Assembly (NCBI GenBank): GCA_003963305.1
Contig: RXJR01000023.1
Coordinates: 62,001-126,000 of the forward strand
DNA length: 64,000 bases
Source: Candidatus Melainabacteria bacterium
GTDB lineage: Bacteria > Cyanobacteriota > Vampirovibrionia > Obscuribacterales > Obscuribacteraceae
Reading direction: 5' to 3'
Part shown: positions 45,813 through 64,000 of the stretch, one piece after another
Layout of the letters: every line of letters begins with the position of its first letter
Position numbering within the stretch: position 1 is the stretch's first letter
Notes under the pieces: model-generated
Seen by the model: only the letters and a program-made list of their open reading frames with translations
The model's database searches: none
What the model was told of the DNA's origin: nothing
Translations under genes and position numbers: made by a program

Positions 45813-46204
45813 TGGTGGAGGCGGCGAGAATCGCACTCGCGTCCAAAGAAGCCGTGACATAAGCATCTACAAGTTTAGTTTGATATTTTCCCAGTCACCG
45901 TTTCCGATCCGCTGGTAGAGGCCCAAACAGCCATCCGGGATTGTGATTATGTCTTAGACCAGGCTATCAATCGCTAATTTTGCCTGGTGGCAACCACCGT
46001 GGTTGACCCAATAAGTGCGGGTGGTCAAGCTCTTATCGAGTCCAGCAAACCTAAGTTATTAGTTAGGCAGCCAGCGCAACGCGCTGGGCTGGGAATTTTA
46101 CGATGTTATTTGCATCTGTATTTTGCTCTGCTTTTTTACGAGGAACTAAGCGACCTCGACCTGCAGCCCATGACCCAACAACCCTGTCGAATCTAAACGC
46201 CCCC
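45813..46204 (-). ncRNA. ssrA: tmRNA (transfer-messenger RNA)
   Basis: 392-nt RNA that rescues stalled ribosomes. The 5' end GGGGGCG (46204-46198) pairs with the 3' strand CGCCTCC just before ACCA at 45813, forming the tRNA-like acceptor stem. The T-arm with G-A-T-T-C is present near the 3' end, the 5' part has A-T-T-C-G-A-C-A-G-G-G of the D-region, and CCA is encoded. The tag frame lies inside (46113-46063). Normal length is 350-400 nt. Single-piece, not permuted. Followed on the same strand upstream by prmA. Confidence 0.93.
46063..46113 (-). other. tmRNA tag-peptide reading frame
   Basis: Sixteen codons plus TAA encode ANNIVKFPAQRVALAA. The N-terminal ANNIV and hydrophobic LAA end match cyanobacterial tags (for example ANNIVPFARKVAPVAA-like). 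A standard Ala-Ala end is recognised by ClpXP-type proteases. The first codon is GCA, as usual. Confidence 0.9.
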
Positions 46205-58081: not shown

Positions 58082-59566
58082 ATGAAAAACTACATTCTCA
58101 GCATCGATCAAGGCACGACTAGCTGTAGAGCTATCGTCTTCGACAAAACCGGCAAGACCATAGCAGTCGGACAGAAAGAATTCACGCAATCTTTTCCGCA
58201 GCCGGGATGGGTCGAACACGACGCCGAGGAAATTTTGGCGACGCAAATAGAATGCATTAAAGAGGCAATAAAAAAGGCGGGCGTTAACGCTGACGAAATT
58301 GCCTGCGTAGGCATCACTAATCAGCGAGAAACCACCGTTGTCTGGAATAAAAAAACAGGCAAACCTGTTTATCCGGCAATCGTCTGGCAATGCCGTCGCA
58401 CGCAAAAGCTTGCCGAAGAATTGCGCGATAAATCGGATGAGTTCAGAGAAAAAACTGGACTCGTTCCAGACGCATATTTTTCCGGTCCGAAAATTCGTTG
58501 GATTTTAGACAACGTCAACGGCGCTCGCAAACTTGCGAATGACGGAGAGTTGGCCTTCGGAACTATAGATTCATGGCTGATCTGGAATCTAACAAGCGAG
58601 AAGAATCATTTCACCGAACCTAGCAATGCATCACGCACGATGCTCTACAACATAAGGACAATGGAATGGGATGACCATCTGTTGTCGCAGCTGGAAATCC
58701 CCAAGACGATGATGCCGCAGGTGATACCATCAAACGGCAGCTTCGGACACACAGACGAAAAACTATTAGGGTTCAAAGCACCTATCAGAGCTAATCTAGG
58801 CGATCAACAAGCCGCCCTCTTCGGACAATGCTGCTTCGATACCGGCATGGGCAAGTGCACATACGGCACCGGCAGCTTCTTGCTCACAAACATCGGCACA
58901 GAAGTTAAGTTGGTGCCGGGGCTTTTGACCACAGTAGCATGGCACCTCGAGGGAACAGCACCGATCTATGCGTTCGAAGGAGCAATCTTCGTCGCAGGTG
59001 CTGCAATTCAATGGTTGCGGGATGGGCTGGGCATCATCGAATCCAGTGCCGACACACAGAAACTGGCAGAGTCTCTGGAGTCGAACGAAGGAGTATTCTT
59101 CGTTCCGGCTTTTGTCGGTCTCGGGTCGCCTTACTGGAACTCAGACGTGCGCGGAACAATCGTCGGACTGACCAGAGGCACAACCCGCGCGCACTTCGCA
59201 CGCGCGGCACTAGAATCGATGGCATTCCAAATTGCAGATGTCGCCAGAGACATGTCAAAGCATGGAATAAGCATCAAAGAGTTGCGAGTCGACGGTGGCG
59301 CAACACGCAACGACTTCATGGTGCAATTCCAGGCTGACTTGTTGAAGGTGCCGGTGATCCGCTCTGCTCAAACCGAATCAACAGCCTGGGGGGTCGGTGC
59401 ATTAGCGGCGCTGACTTGCGGGCTGGTGAAAGACTTCGCTGAATTGTCTGCGGACTGGCAGCTTGATTCCAAAATCATGCCTCAAGTGGATCGGGCAAAC
59501 GACTATGAGGGCTGGCAAGCGGCGATTCGCGGCGCCTTTGCAGTAGCAGAACACAAACGATTTTAA
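58082..59566 (+). CDS. glpK: Glycerol kinase
   Basis: 494 residues. Phosphorylates glycerol to sn-glycerol 3-phosphate with ATP in the cytoplasm. FGGY fold with [13 protein letters not shown] near the N-terminus, [19 protein letters not shown] and G-T-G-S-F-L-L-x-N, and the [14 protein letters not shown] block; the C-terminal [13 protein letters not shown] is the FGGY signature. Length and order are normal. No glpF or glpD neighbour. Its stop codon and that of nrdB overlap in the shared TTAA. Confidence 0.97.
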
Positions 59567-60780
59567 TCCCAGCTCAAAGTACCACCTGTCTGATAGTCGA
59601 TGACGCGCGTTTCAAAGAAATTCTTTTCCTTACGCAGATCCAGCATTTCGCTCATCCAGGGGAATGGATTTTGCGCACCGGCGTACAGCTCAGGCAGACC
59701 AATTTGATTCAACCGGCGATTAGCAATGAATCTCAAATAGTCGTAGAACATATTCTGATTCAAGCCAAGCACGCCTCGTGGCATGGTGTCCTGGGCATAA
59801 CGCAATTCCAATTCGACGGCTTGCTTGATCAGATCTACGATTTCACTCTGAAAATCAGGAGTCCACAAATGCGGATTTTCAGCCTTAATTTGGTTGATCA
59901 AATCAATTCCAAAATTGAGGTGCATAGACTCATCACGCAAGATGTACTGAAATTCTTCCGAAGCACCAGTCATTTTGTTCTGGCGCCCAAAACTGAGCAT
60001 CTGAACAAATCCAACGTAGAAGAACAGGCCTTCCATGATTACGTAATAGCCAATCAAATTACGCAGGAACCGGCGATCGGTTTCTGGAGTTCCGGTATTG
60101 AAATTTGGATCTGAAAGTTCCTGCGTGAACTGGAGTTCAAATGCATCCTTATCATGGATCACAGGCACTTCGCGATACATGTTGAAGATCTCGCCTTCGT
60201 CGAGCCCAAGGCTCTCGATGACGTACTGATACGCATGAGTATGCACAGCTTCATCAAACGCCTGGCGCAGAAGATACTGTCGGCACTCAGGATTCGTGAT
60301 GTGTCGGTAGATCGCAAGCACGAGATTATTTGCGACGAGTGAATCTGCAGTCGAAAAGAAACCGAGATTTCTCTTGATGATCATACGCTCGTCTTCGGTC
60401 AATCCATTCGGGTTCTTCCACAAGGCAATATCACGACTCATATTGATTTCCTGCGGCATCCAGTGATTGGCGCATGCGTCGAGATACTTCTGCCAGGCCC
60501 ATTCGTATTTGAAAGGCACAAGCTGATTTAAATCGGCGCGACAGTTGATGATGCGCTTTTCGTCCACCTTTATTCGTGCGGCGTTGAACTTTATCTCTTC
60601 CATGCCTGTGACACCATGACCAGTGGCTGATGAGACTGCTGAACTACTCGCAGCCGCTGTGTTCGGCGGTGCAAACGAAATTCCAATCGGCTGTCCACTA
60701 TTCTGTCCAAGTGCCTGTCCAGCAGTTGAATTTCCAACACCCTGCTGTGCAGTCGCTGCGCCATCGCCAAAATCGAGCAT
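59563..60780 (-). CDS. nrdB: Ribonucleotide reductase class I, beta subunit
   Basis: 405 residues. Houses the di-metal site and radical: ligands D146, E177 and H180 with the radical Tyr at Y184 (EAVHTHAY), and further E and H in [11 protein letters not shown] Tyr rather than Phe argues for an Ia/Ib-type radical, not Ic. The first ~60 residues are Gly/Ala/Ser/Gln-rich and absent from standard NrdB. The C-terminus ends [12 protein letters not shown]. It follows nrdA by 46 bases, and the operon is under the riboswitch. Confidence 0.95.
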
Positions 60781-60826: not shown

Positions 60827-63634
60827 TTATTGGCAAGATTCGCATTCTGGATCGGTGATCAAGCATGCTTTGCCCATTTGCACAGGCGCAGATACAGCCA
60901 CCGTAGATGACACCGCGTTCAGCGCGCCTGTCTTAACAGTAGACTTTTCCGCACTGGTAGCACTTGTCGTACGCAAGTAATACGTTGTCTTCAAACCTGA
61001 CGTCCAAGCCAGTTTATACATCTCGTCGAGCTTCTTGCCACTTGGCTCTGACATGTACAGGTTCAAACTCTGAGATTGATCGATCCACTTCTGGCGTCTG
61101 GAACCTGCTTTGATCAACCAGCTCGCATCCACCTCGAAAGCGGTTGCATAACGGGCCTTCACATCAGCCGGTATCCGCTCGATTGGCAAGACACTGCCGT
61201 CGAAGTACTTCAAGTCATGCACCATCACTTCATCCCACAAACCAAGCTCTTTGAGCTCGTCTACGAGATAACTGTTGAGCACCGTGAAATCGCCCGAGAG
61301 GTTTGACTTAACAAACAGATTCTGGAATGTGGGCTCAATCGACTGACTGACGCCGACAATGTTCGATATGGTGGCAGTCGGTGCAATCGCGAGACAGTTG
61401 CTGTTACGCATTCCCCATCTAGCGATGTGTTCACGAACTGCGGTCCAATCAAGCTTTCCGCCACGAGTGACATTTACAGGAGTACTGCGAGCGGCTTGGA
61501 GAAGTTCAAGAGAATCTTGCGGAAGGATGCCCTTATCCCAAAGAGAACCGGCGTAACTCTGGTATGCACCACGCTCCTTAGCCAGCTGACTGCTAGCTAG
61601 AATCGCATAGAAACTGATGGCTTCCTGCGAATAGTCGGCAAAGTCAACTGCTGCCTCTGAAGCATAGGGGATCCTCAACAGAAGCAATGCATCCTGAAAT
61701 CCCATCAATCCAAGACCGACAGGGCGGTGCTTCATGTTCGCCTGACGAGCTTTAGGCACGCTGTAATAGTTGATATCGACAACGTTATCGAGCATACGCA
61801 TAGCGATGCGACAGGTGTTTTGCAGCTTCTGAAGATCAAGGGCACCATCGGTGATGTGAGCAACCAGGTTGACGGATCCGAGATTGCAAACCGCCGTCTC
61901 AGTATCAGATGTATTCAAAGTGATTTCGGTACAGAGATTCGAACTGTGAACTACACCTACGTGCTGTTGCGGGCTGCGTAAGTTGCAGGGGTCCTTGAAA
62001 GTAATCCATGGATGACCGGTCTCGAACAACATCGACAGCATCTTCCGCCACAATGAAACAGCCGGAACCTTCTTGAACAGTTTCAGTTGACCAGCTTGCG
62101 CTTTCGCTTCGTACTCTTCGTACTTGTCCTTGAACGCTGGTCCAAATAGATTATGCAGGTCCGGAGTCTCATCCGGGCTGAACAAAGTCCACTCAGAATC
62201 TGACAGCAAGCGCTCCATGAACAAATCTGGAATCCAGTTTGCCGTATTCATATCGTGGCAACGACGGCGATCATCGCCCGTATTTTTGCGCAGTTCCAGA
62301 AACTCCTCGATATCGAGGTGCCATGTTTCGAGATAGCTGCAAACAGCACCCTGCCTCTTGCCACCCTGATTAACAGCAACAGCAGTGTCATTGACGACTT
62401 TGAGGAACGGCACGACGCCCTGGCTCTTGCCGTTGGTGCCTTCGATATGAGCGCCGAGGGCACGAACAGGAGTCCAGTCGTTACCGAGTCCGCCGCTGTA
62501 TTTAGACAGCAATGCATTTTCCTTGATCGAATCGTAGATTCCAATCAAGTCATCGCTAACGGTGGTCAGGAAGCAAGAAGATAGCTGCGGGCGCTGGGTG
62601 CCGGAATTGAACAGCGTTGGAGTCGACGAAACGAAATCGAAGCTAGACAACAAGTTATAGAACTCGATAGCACGTTCTTCTCGTTCAACTTCGTTGAGCG
62701 CCAGACCCATGGCTACGCGCATCCAGAAAGCTTGCGGCAGCTCGATGCGAGTTCCGTCAATGTGGATTAAATAACGGTCGAACAAAGTTTGCAAACCGAG
62801 ATATTGGAAATTCAAATCGCGATCTGGCTTGATTGCTGCACCAATTTTAGCGAGGTCGAATTGTCCGAGACGGGCATCGATACGGCCGGCAGCAACTCCT
62901 TTTGCAACGTATTCAGCAAAATAGGATGGGTAGAGCGCCTTCATCTGCTCATGAGTGGTCGGGGCGCCAATCACTTCCAGACGAATCTGATCGAGCAACA
63001 AACGGGCAGTCGCATAAGCGTAGGCAGGATCATGCTCAATCAACGCCCGCGCACTAAGAATGGCTGATTTGTAGACTTCAGCCTGAGGTACACCGTGGTA
63101 CAAACTGGCAATTGTGGCATCGAAGATTTTCTCGACAGACACCGCATTGCCCAACGATGAACACGCTTCTTCAATAACTGTTTTCAGACGGGCAACATCC
63201 AATGGTGCGCTTGTACCATCCGGGTTCGTAACGTCGATTGCGAAACTCGGTTGGCGCACGTTGTCGTGGGCACGTTCTCTGGCGCGAGCTTCGCGATAAA
63301 GAACATAACTTCTCGCCACTTCATGCTCACCGGCACGCATCAAGGCCAGCTCGACCTGGTCCTGGATATGCTCGATATGCAAGATGCCGCCTTCAGGCAA
63401 ACGACGCTCGAGCACTGAACAAACCTGCGCTGTCAAACGCTGCACTATATCGCGCACCTTGGAGCTAATGGTGCCACCACTCTCGCCCTCAACGGCGATA
63501 AAGGCCTTGGTAATCGCAACTGAAATCTTGGCTGGATCGAAGTCGACAACTGTTTGATCGCGCCTCAAAACCTTGTATTCAACTGCCGTTTTTGCCGCCG
63601 AATCAGGCAATTTGTTTGCGGTTACTTGACTCAT
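60827..63634 (-). CDS. nrdA: Ribonucleotide reductase class I, alpha subunit
   Basis: 935 residues. Reduces ribonucleotides to deoxyribonucleotides with NrdB. Two N-terminal ATP-cones are visible (about 20-125 and 128-215), more than the single one in many enzymes. The catalytic barrel has the N-L-C-T-E motif and a first-Cys region L-S-S-C-F-L, and the C-terminus has C-E-S-C-Q, the redox-relay pair. The ATG at 63634 is preceded by GGGAG; the frame extends 48 codons upstream into the riboswitch platform, so it is left out. Under the cobalamin riboswitch, terminator and competing hairpin at 63664-63869. Confidence 0.96.
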   Translation of the reverse strand: MSQVTANKLPDSAAKTAVEYKVLRRDQTVVDFDPAKISVAITKAFIAVEGESGGTISSKVRDIVQRLTAQVCSVLERRLPEGGILHIEHIQDQVELALMRAGEHEVARSYVLYREARARERAHDNVRQPSFAIDVTNPDGTSAPLDVARLKTVIEEACSSLGNAVSVEKIFDATIASLYHGVPQAEVYKSAILSARALIEHDPAYAYATARLLLDQIRLEVIGAPTTHEQMKALYPSYFAEYVAKGVAAGRIDARLGQFDLAKIGAAIKPDRDLNFQYLGLQTLFDRYLIHIDGTRIELPQAFWMRVAMGLALNEVEREERAIEFYNLLSSFDFVSSTPTLFNSGTQRPQLSSCFLTTVSDDLIGIYDSIKENALLSKYSGGLGNDWTPVRALGAHIEGTNGKSQGVVPFLKVVNDTAVAVNQGGKRQGAVCSYLETWHLDIEEFLELRKNTGDDRRRCHDMNTANWIPDLFMERLLSDSEWTLFSPDETPDLHNLFGPAFKDKYEEYEAKAQAGQLKLFKKVPAVSLWRKMLSMLFETGHPWITFKDPCNLRSPQQHVGVVHSSNLCTEITLNTSDTETAVCNLGSVNLVAHITDGALDLQKLQNTCRIAMRMLDNVVDINYYSVPKARQANMKHRPVGLGLMGFQDALLLLRIPYASEAAVDFADYSQEAISFYAILASSQLAKERGAYQSYAGSLWDKGILPQDSLELLQAARSTPVNVTRGGKLDWTAVREHIARWGMRNSNCLAIAPTATISNIVGVSQSIEPTFQNLFVKSNLSGDFTVLNSYLVDELKELGLWDEVMVHDLKYFDGSVLPIERIPADVKARYATAFEVDASWLIKAGSRRQKWIDQSQSLNLYMSEPSGKKLDEMYKLAWTSGLKTTYYLRTTSATSAEKSTVKTGALNAVSSTVAVSAPVQMGKACLITDPECESCQ

Positions 63635-63663
63635 TAATCGAACTCCCGAATGTGAAAGCTGAG

Positions 63664-63696
63664 AAATAAAAATCCTTCTGGTATGAGCCCAGAAGG
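63664..63696 (-). terminator. Rho-independent terminator ahead of nrdA
   Basis: In the transcript CCTTCTGG, loop GCTCATA, CCAGAAGG: a perfect eight-base-pair stem followed by ATTTTTATTT. It lies between the riboswitch and the nrdA ribosome site, so it would end transcription of nrdAB when formed. Confidence 0.85.
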
Positions 63697-63740
63697 AAAA
63701 ATCATCGGCACGGATATGTATCCGCTGCATATGACGTTTC

Positions 63741-63759
63741 CCTTCTTGCCTCGAGAAGG
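63741..63759 (-). promoter_or_regulatory. Competing hairpin (antiterminator candidate)
   Basis: In the transcript CCTTCT (63759-63754) and AGAAGG (63746-63741) pair across a seven-base loop. Its second arm, AGAAGG, is also complementary to the first arm of the terminator (CCTTCT), so the two structures compete. This fits a switch between termination and read-through under riboswitch control. Not shown by experiment here. Confidence 0.55.
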
Positions 63760-63769
63760 TTCGTCCGTT

Positions 63770-63869
63770 ATCTGGCATTCAGGTGGGTAGCCTGGCTTCT
63801 CAATCTCAATGGACTGAAGTTACAGTTGCGGGACAGCGGTGGAATCTCACCACACTTCCCCCACCAGAT
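63770..63869 (-). ncRNA. Cobalamin riboswitch aptamer
   Basis: The transcript carries GGGGGAAG, then GGTGAGATTCCACCGC, TGTCCCGCAACTGTAA and the B12 box AGCCAGGCTACC (minus strand 63797 down), the conserved order of cobalamin aptamers. Outer strands ATCTGG (63869-63864) and CCAGAT (63775-63770) are complementary and close the core, as do GGTGGG and CCCACC. It lies ~140 bases before nrdA. Additional 5' parts may extend toward the window end. Normally cobalamin binding turns the downstream genes off; that matches a B12-independent enzyme here. Confidence 0.85.
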
Positions 63870-64000
63870 CTCAACTACACGCTGTACATGTAATTCGATC
63901 CCTGACGTTGCTGAATGCTCAGCAAAGGAATTTTATTGTTGCGCTCCTTTTGGATTTACAACTCAGTAACAACACTTGCGTATTGCACGATTTGAAGGTA

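Follow-up and report, generated by a model that had tools for sequence, protein, structure and literature searches.

A cobalamin riboswitch predicted to attenuate transcription of a class I ribonucleotide reductase operon in non-photosynthetic Cyanobacteriota

Among the cobalamin (B12) riboswitches described so far, that of Priestia megaterium metE has the same architecture as the element reported here, and in that case the architecture was proven by mutation (PMC10653944). Control of ribonucleotide reductase (RNR) genes by B12 is also on record. The Streptomyces nrdABS operon is under such control (PMC4991794, citing Borovok 2006), and B12 control has been predicted for delta-proteobacterial nrdDG, on the reasoning that the B12-free isozyme is switched off in the presence of B12 (PMC545781). 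No report of riboswitches in the lineage studied here was found in the literature searched. We analyzed a stretch of 64,000 nucleotides (hereafter the window), corresponding to C23:62001-126000 of a 7.48 Mb draft genome that is 95% complete, and consider it very probable that a transcription-attenuating cobalamin riboswitch represses its B12-independent class I nrdAB operon, the class II enzyme NrdJ then supplying the deoxyribonucleotides.

The aptamer, together with P12/P13, was located with cmscan at 63729..63886 on the minus strand, where the adenosylcobalamin (AdoCbl) model RF01482 matches at 63886-63729 over its full length (1-149/149) with 61.2 bits against a gathering score of 50 (E 8.4e-9). 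RF00174, of the same clan (CL00101), matches at the same place with 43.8 bits, also above its cut-off. The initial annotation had read a B12 aptamer with a clear B12 box from this leader and had named an Infernal search with the Rfam cobalamin model as the check; both models bear the reading out, and the element it placed at 63664-63869 is real, but that span missed the first 17 nt of the aptamer. Both parts of the conserved core are present in the nrdA leader, namely the B12-box segment AGCCAGGCUACCCACC (63782..63797 (-), assigned from the sequence and the Rfam alignment) and a UCCCG within the P5/L5 region GCUGUCCCGCAACUG (63823..63837 (-), assigned from the sequence), UCCCG being the L5 consensus (PMC10653944). 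The P13 hairpin, CCUUCU-CGAGGCA-AGAAGG (63741..63759 (-)), was drawn from the Rfam alignment and folding, and L13, its loop, is presumed to pair with L5 in a kissing interaction. By inspection, L5 UCCCG and L13 CGAGG form four of five pairs, one of them G-U; given that L13 reads CGAGG in the window's leader, one of the five kissing pairs is mismatched. The L13 sequences of relatives are CGAGG, CGCGG, CGUGG, and CGGGG. A pattern scan gave no sigma-70-like promoter upstream.

Three helices compete for the sequence between aptamer and gene. In the P13 hairpin (63759-63741), AGAAGG at 63746-63741 serves as the 3' arm. The complementary CCTTCT (63696-63691) provides an intrinsic terminator with its first arm, just as had been noticed at the outset. 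This terminator is the stem-loop CCUUCUGG-GCUCAUA-CCAGAAGG (63674..63696 (-)), identified by folding and recovered independently by the pattern scan; ATTTTTATTT follows the stem-loop (63696-63674), and the U-rich tract occupies 63663..63673 (-). Between P13 and the terminator lies a linker with an inner stem. The competing pairing proposed in the initial annotation is real and conserved, but it extends beyond AGAAGG/CCTTCT to a helix of 10 bp, one of them G-U, in which AGAAGGGAAA and UUUUCCUUCU close the inner stem to give the antiterminator hairpin (63691..63746 (-), from folding and covariation). Because the segment that closes P13 on its 3' side can instead pair with the terminator's first arm, P13, antiterminator, and terminator are mutually exclusive. 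P13 folds at -5.0 kcal/mol (P12+P13, -9.8 kcal/mol), the terminator at -12.7 kcal/mol (-15.2 with flanks, z = -5.4 against shuffles), and the antiterminator hairpin, more stable than P13 with or without P12, at -24.8 kcal/mol (z = -5.4 against shuffles). When the whole leader is folded without ligand or constraints, the structure of lowest energy contains the antiterminator, so the default state would be ON and the gene should be expressed without ligand.

In the mechanism that we propose, the absence of cobalamin, the presumed ligand, would allow the 3' arm of P13 (AGAAGG) to leave P13 and pair with the first arm of the terminator, and RNA polymerase would read through the resulting antiterminator into nrdAB. 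Upon binding of cobalamin, the L5-L13 kissing loop would keep P13 closed, the terminator would form some 30 nt ahead of the nrdA start codon, and transcription would end there. Deoxyribonucleotide synthesis would then fall to NrdJ, the class II enzyme encoded in the same genome, which depends on adenosylcobalamin.

Translational cobalamin riboswitches are known, e.g., that of E. coli btuB (PMC10653944), and the element could likewise act on translation or RNA stability and not mainly on termination. We regard this as improbable, given that a clear terminator with a U tract stands between aptamer and gene, that none of the three helices includes the ribosome-binding site, probably GGGAG at 63643..63647 (-) and 8 nt ahead of the ATG, and that terminator and competing helix are kept in nearly all of the 29 riboswitch-bearing nrdA leaders of the order. 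Activation of nrdAB on cobalamin binding, in the manner of the A. halodurans cobT riboswitch, is less probable still: activating corrinoid riboswitches exist, and in that type P13 and terminator share sequence and exclude each other (PMC10653944), whereas here the pairing of the P13 3' arm with the first arm of the terminator is the repressing layout, and activation would be senseless where the enzyme needs no B12 and its partner does.

Across the order, a search of 53 genomes found 60 cobalamin riboswitches. Those that precede nrdA occur in 29 of the 43 genomes with a readable leader, which represent 12 genera and each of the order's two families; the 14 further full nrdA leaders gave no cobalamin riboswitch, even at E up to 1. 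For the covariation analysis, an automatic search of the 29 leaders for P13 and antiterminator mis-assigned a few P13 stems (e.g., in G012 and G041), so the permutation test was run on manually curated arms from 26 leaders (23 distinct pairs). Antiterminator arms pair better with their own than with a swapped partner (mean -10.5 vs. -8.1 kcal/mol), and the total for own-arm pairing was reached by none of 2000 permutations of the 23 distinct nrdA leaders. Three pairs beyond the near-invariant core gave 37 observed against 20.5 expected (0/5000 permutations), in a test that ignores kinship, with the arm changes occurring between genera. That several relatives carry nrdA without the element might suggest a decayed remnant devoid of regulatory function, but the aptamer is full-length and passes the gathering score, and compensatory changes have arisen in its expression platform across genera, which makes decay very unlikely. 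A chance origin is ruled out by the Infernal E-value, the shuffles, and the covariation.

Riboswitch matches before nrdB-nrdA, a pair with the opposite gene order, were also obtained in two genomes (G100 and G086; L203, L204) from a different family of the class, f3. Judging from these matches, class I RNR is probably under B12 control outside the order as well.

The riboswitch is located upstream of nrdA, which starts at 63634 and is followed by nrdB, and profile searches agree with the earlier reading of these genes as a class I RNR. The large subunit NrdA (60827..63634 (-), 935 aa) matches NF005544 with 1642 bits (cut-off 965) and the small subunit NrdB (59563..60780 (-), 405 aa) matches NF005550 with 694 bits (cut-off 309), both far above the thresholds; active-site and R2 motifs were inspected by eye. 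The longest nrdA open reading frame (983 aa) starts at 63778 and runs in frame through the expression platform. This start was rejected, because it falls within the riboswitch and conservation points to 63634 instead; automatic annotation would likely add a false extension of 48 codons here (window 63635-63778 (-)) and likewise in the related genome G036. No nrdS is present after nrdB, where the next open reading frame (58082-59566) is on the other strand and appears, by its sequence, to be glycerol-kinase-like. Elsewhere in the window, a tmRNA gene was found at 45813-46204 (-) with 135.9 bits. The NrdA of 'Cyanobacteria bacterium SZAS-4' shares 90% identity with that of the window, which, together with the other close matches, assigns the genome to the non-photosynthetic cyanobacteria. 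The nearest NrdA sequences outside the group, at 64-67%, are from Betaproteobacteria and other Proteobacteria, a pattern suggestive of ancient horizontal transfer of the gene.

The initial annotation had predicted a B12-dependent class II RNR elsewhere in the genome and had named a search for B12 uptake or synthesis genes as a further check. The enzyme was found at C24, where an NrdJ_Z-type RNR scores 724 bits with TIGR02504 (cut-off 400) and its gene adjoins a dCTP-deaminase-like gene. Since the genome also carries this B12-dependent RNR, nrdAB is predicted to be off when B12 is plentiful. There is also a second, divergent class II-like RNR of 1022 aa at G000:C10 (L094:4520-7588), which at 302 bits falls short of the NrdJ_Z cut-off (400) but scores 350 bits with a B12-dependent RNR model; both class II proteins carry NPCGE and a C-terminal four-cysteine motif. 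Most genomes of the order have this divergent protein in addition to the ordinary NrdJ. The search for B12 genes recovered MetH and two methylmalonyl-CoA mutases as B12-using enzymes, and CobS and a CobA/BtuR-like protein for salvage. The adenosyltransferase match of the latter is weak (90.6 bits), and no PduO-type adenosyltransferase was found. This divergent CobA/BtuR-like gene (G000:C22:114738-115735, about 90 bits to PF02572) is adjoined in most genomes by a hotdog thioesterase paralogue that shares about 30% identity with the thioesterase under riboswitch control discussed below, and the same pair is seen in many relatives.

Across the order, 27 of the 29 genomes that have the nrdA riboswitch encode an NrdJ-type RNR, compared with 6 of the 14 that lack it (Fisher p 0.0007, kinship ignored). 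Given the six genomes in which NrdJ is accompanied by an nrdA leader without riboswitch, the pairing is not obligatory, and the proposition that the riboswitch strictly follows NrdJ was rejected. No class II RNR was found in G007 (88% complete), which has the riboswitch, nor in G013, G014, G031, and G038, all without the nrdA riboswitch and three of them only 65-71% complete. In G014 (96% complete), NrdJ, mutase, CobS, adenosyltransferase, and riboswitch were all not found and nrdAB is kept; the same absences, again with nrdAB kept, apply to its sister G013 (71% complete). The order can be viewed as a natural experiment, in which the switch is retained in most lineages that have a class II RNR and is missing from one that has nrdAB but none of the tested B12 markers.

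Some of the bare leaders contain other candidate control sites. Box-like palindromes with 2-4 mismatches were seen in the nrdA leaders of G020, G013, and G014, with two NrdR-box-like palindromes in each (L183, L184, and L186, respectively). The window's own nrdA leader has no NrdR box (best 6 mismatches), and some riboswitch-bearing nrdA leaders also score 3-4 mismatches. These counts are only suggestive of a possible swap of regulators in which NrdR boxes may have replaced the riboswitch.

The 31 cobalamin riboswitches of the order with other targets were surveyed by checking one example of each type against Pfam. A hotdog acyl-CoA thioesterase follows the riboswitch at 13 loci in 9 genera, metE at 4 loci, prpB-like and citrate-synthase genes at 2 loci, an acyl-CoA dehydrogenase/ECH_2 hydrolase operon at 2 loci, and nrdDG at 1 locus, while the remaining riboswitches mostly precede cobalt or corrin genes. 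The genome of the window itself has a second cobalamin riboswitch, at G000:C20:108110-108222 (-), which precedes a thioesterase of 131 aa (PF03061; L092:4598-4993 (-)). Of 14 orthologues of this protein scoring above 150 bits in the order, 13 lie directly behind a cobalamin riboswitch; the only other one belongs to G013, which yielded no B12 marker. The literature searched held no report of a thioesterase as a cobalamin riboswitch target.

G023 (L130, L171) and G027 (L146, L153) have convergent operons with a cobalamin riboswitch on each. One contains the prpB-like and citrate synthase genes, and the other contains acyl-CoA dehydrogenase and ECH_2 hydrolase genes followed by two more, which look like 3-hydroxyisobutyrate dehydrogenase and enoyl-CoA hydratase; this second operon resembles a B12-free propionate shunt or valine breakdown. 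In G046, a relative of the window's genome that also has the nrdAB riboswitch, a cobalamin riboswitch stands before a class III RNR (NRDD, 569 bits) and a radical-SAM activase (G046:C58, L156:1001-4411). It can be speculated, with somewhat less than even confidence, that the window's riboswitch belongs to a wider B12-shortage regulon comprising the thioesterase, metE, nrdDG, the methylcitrate-cycle-like genes, and the acyl-CoA dehydrogenase/hydroxyacyl-CoA hydrolase operon, which together would relieve a build-up of propionyl- or methylmalonyl-CoA when methylmalonyl-CoA mutase lacks B12. In such a regulon, the short-chain acyl-CoA thioesterase at C20 would free CoA from propionyl- or methylmalonyl-CoA under the same shortage. 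The conserved thioesterase, outside the window, is the less expected part and, if the regulon holds, would be a newly recognized cobalamin riboswitch target. The order would then offer a testable picture of how its members cope with loss of B12, the conserved thioesterase included.

The findings extend B12-riboswitch control of the choice of RNR to non-photosynthetic, Obscuribacterales-like Cyanobacteriota. In layout, the closest relative is the P. megaterium metE riboswitch, in which the P13 3' arm likewise pairs with the 5' arm of the terminator, L5 reads UCCCG, the antiterminator is more stable than P13, and the outcome is repression of a B12-independent isozyme (PMC10653944). The two differ in that the gene controlled there is metE and not nrdAB, and in that the metE kissing loop has five complementary pairs, as opposed to the four, with their G-U, and one mismatch here. 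In logic, the locus follows Streptomyces coelicolor nrdABS, for which PMC4991794 describes a cobalamin riboswitch before class I nrdAB, a class II nrdJ in the genome, and repression of the B12-free enzyme by B12, as is predicted here. The Streptomyces precedent invoked in the initial annotation is therefore documented, but the nrdS gene found there, for an AraC-type regulator, has no counterpart after nrdB here, and Streptomyces belongs to another phylum; the comparison made here is one of regulatory logic. Delta-proteobacterial nrdDG similarly represents a B12-independent RNR repressed when NrdJ can work (PMC545781), with a class III enzyme there and class I here. Given a layout shared with P. 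megaterium metE and a logic shared with Streptomyces nrdABS and delta-proteobacterial nrdDG, we contend that a familiar form of regulation has here been found in a further lineage, and the evolutionary evidence for it is strong.
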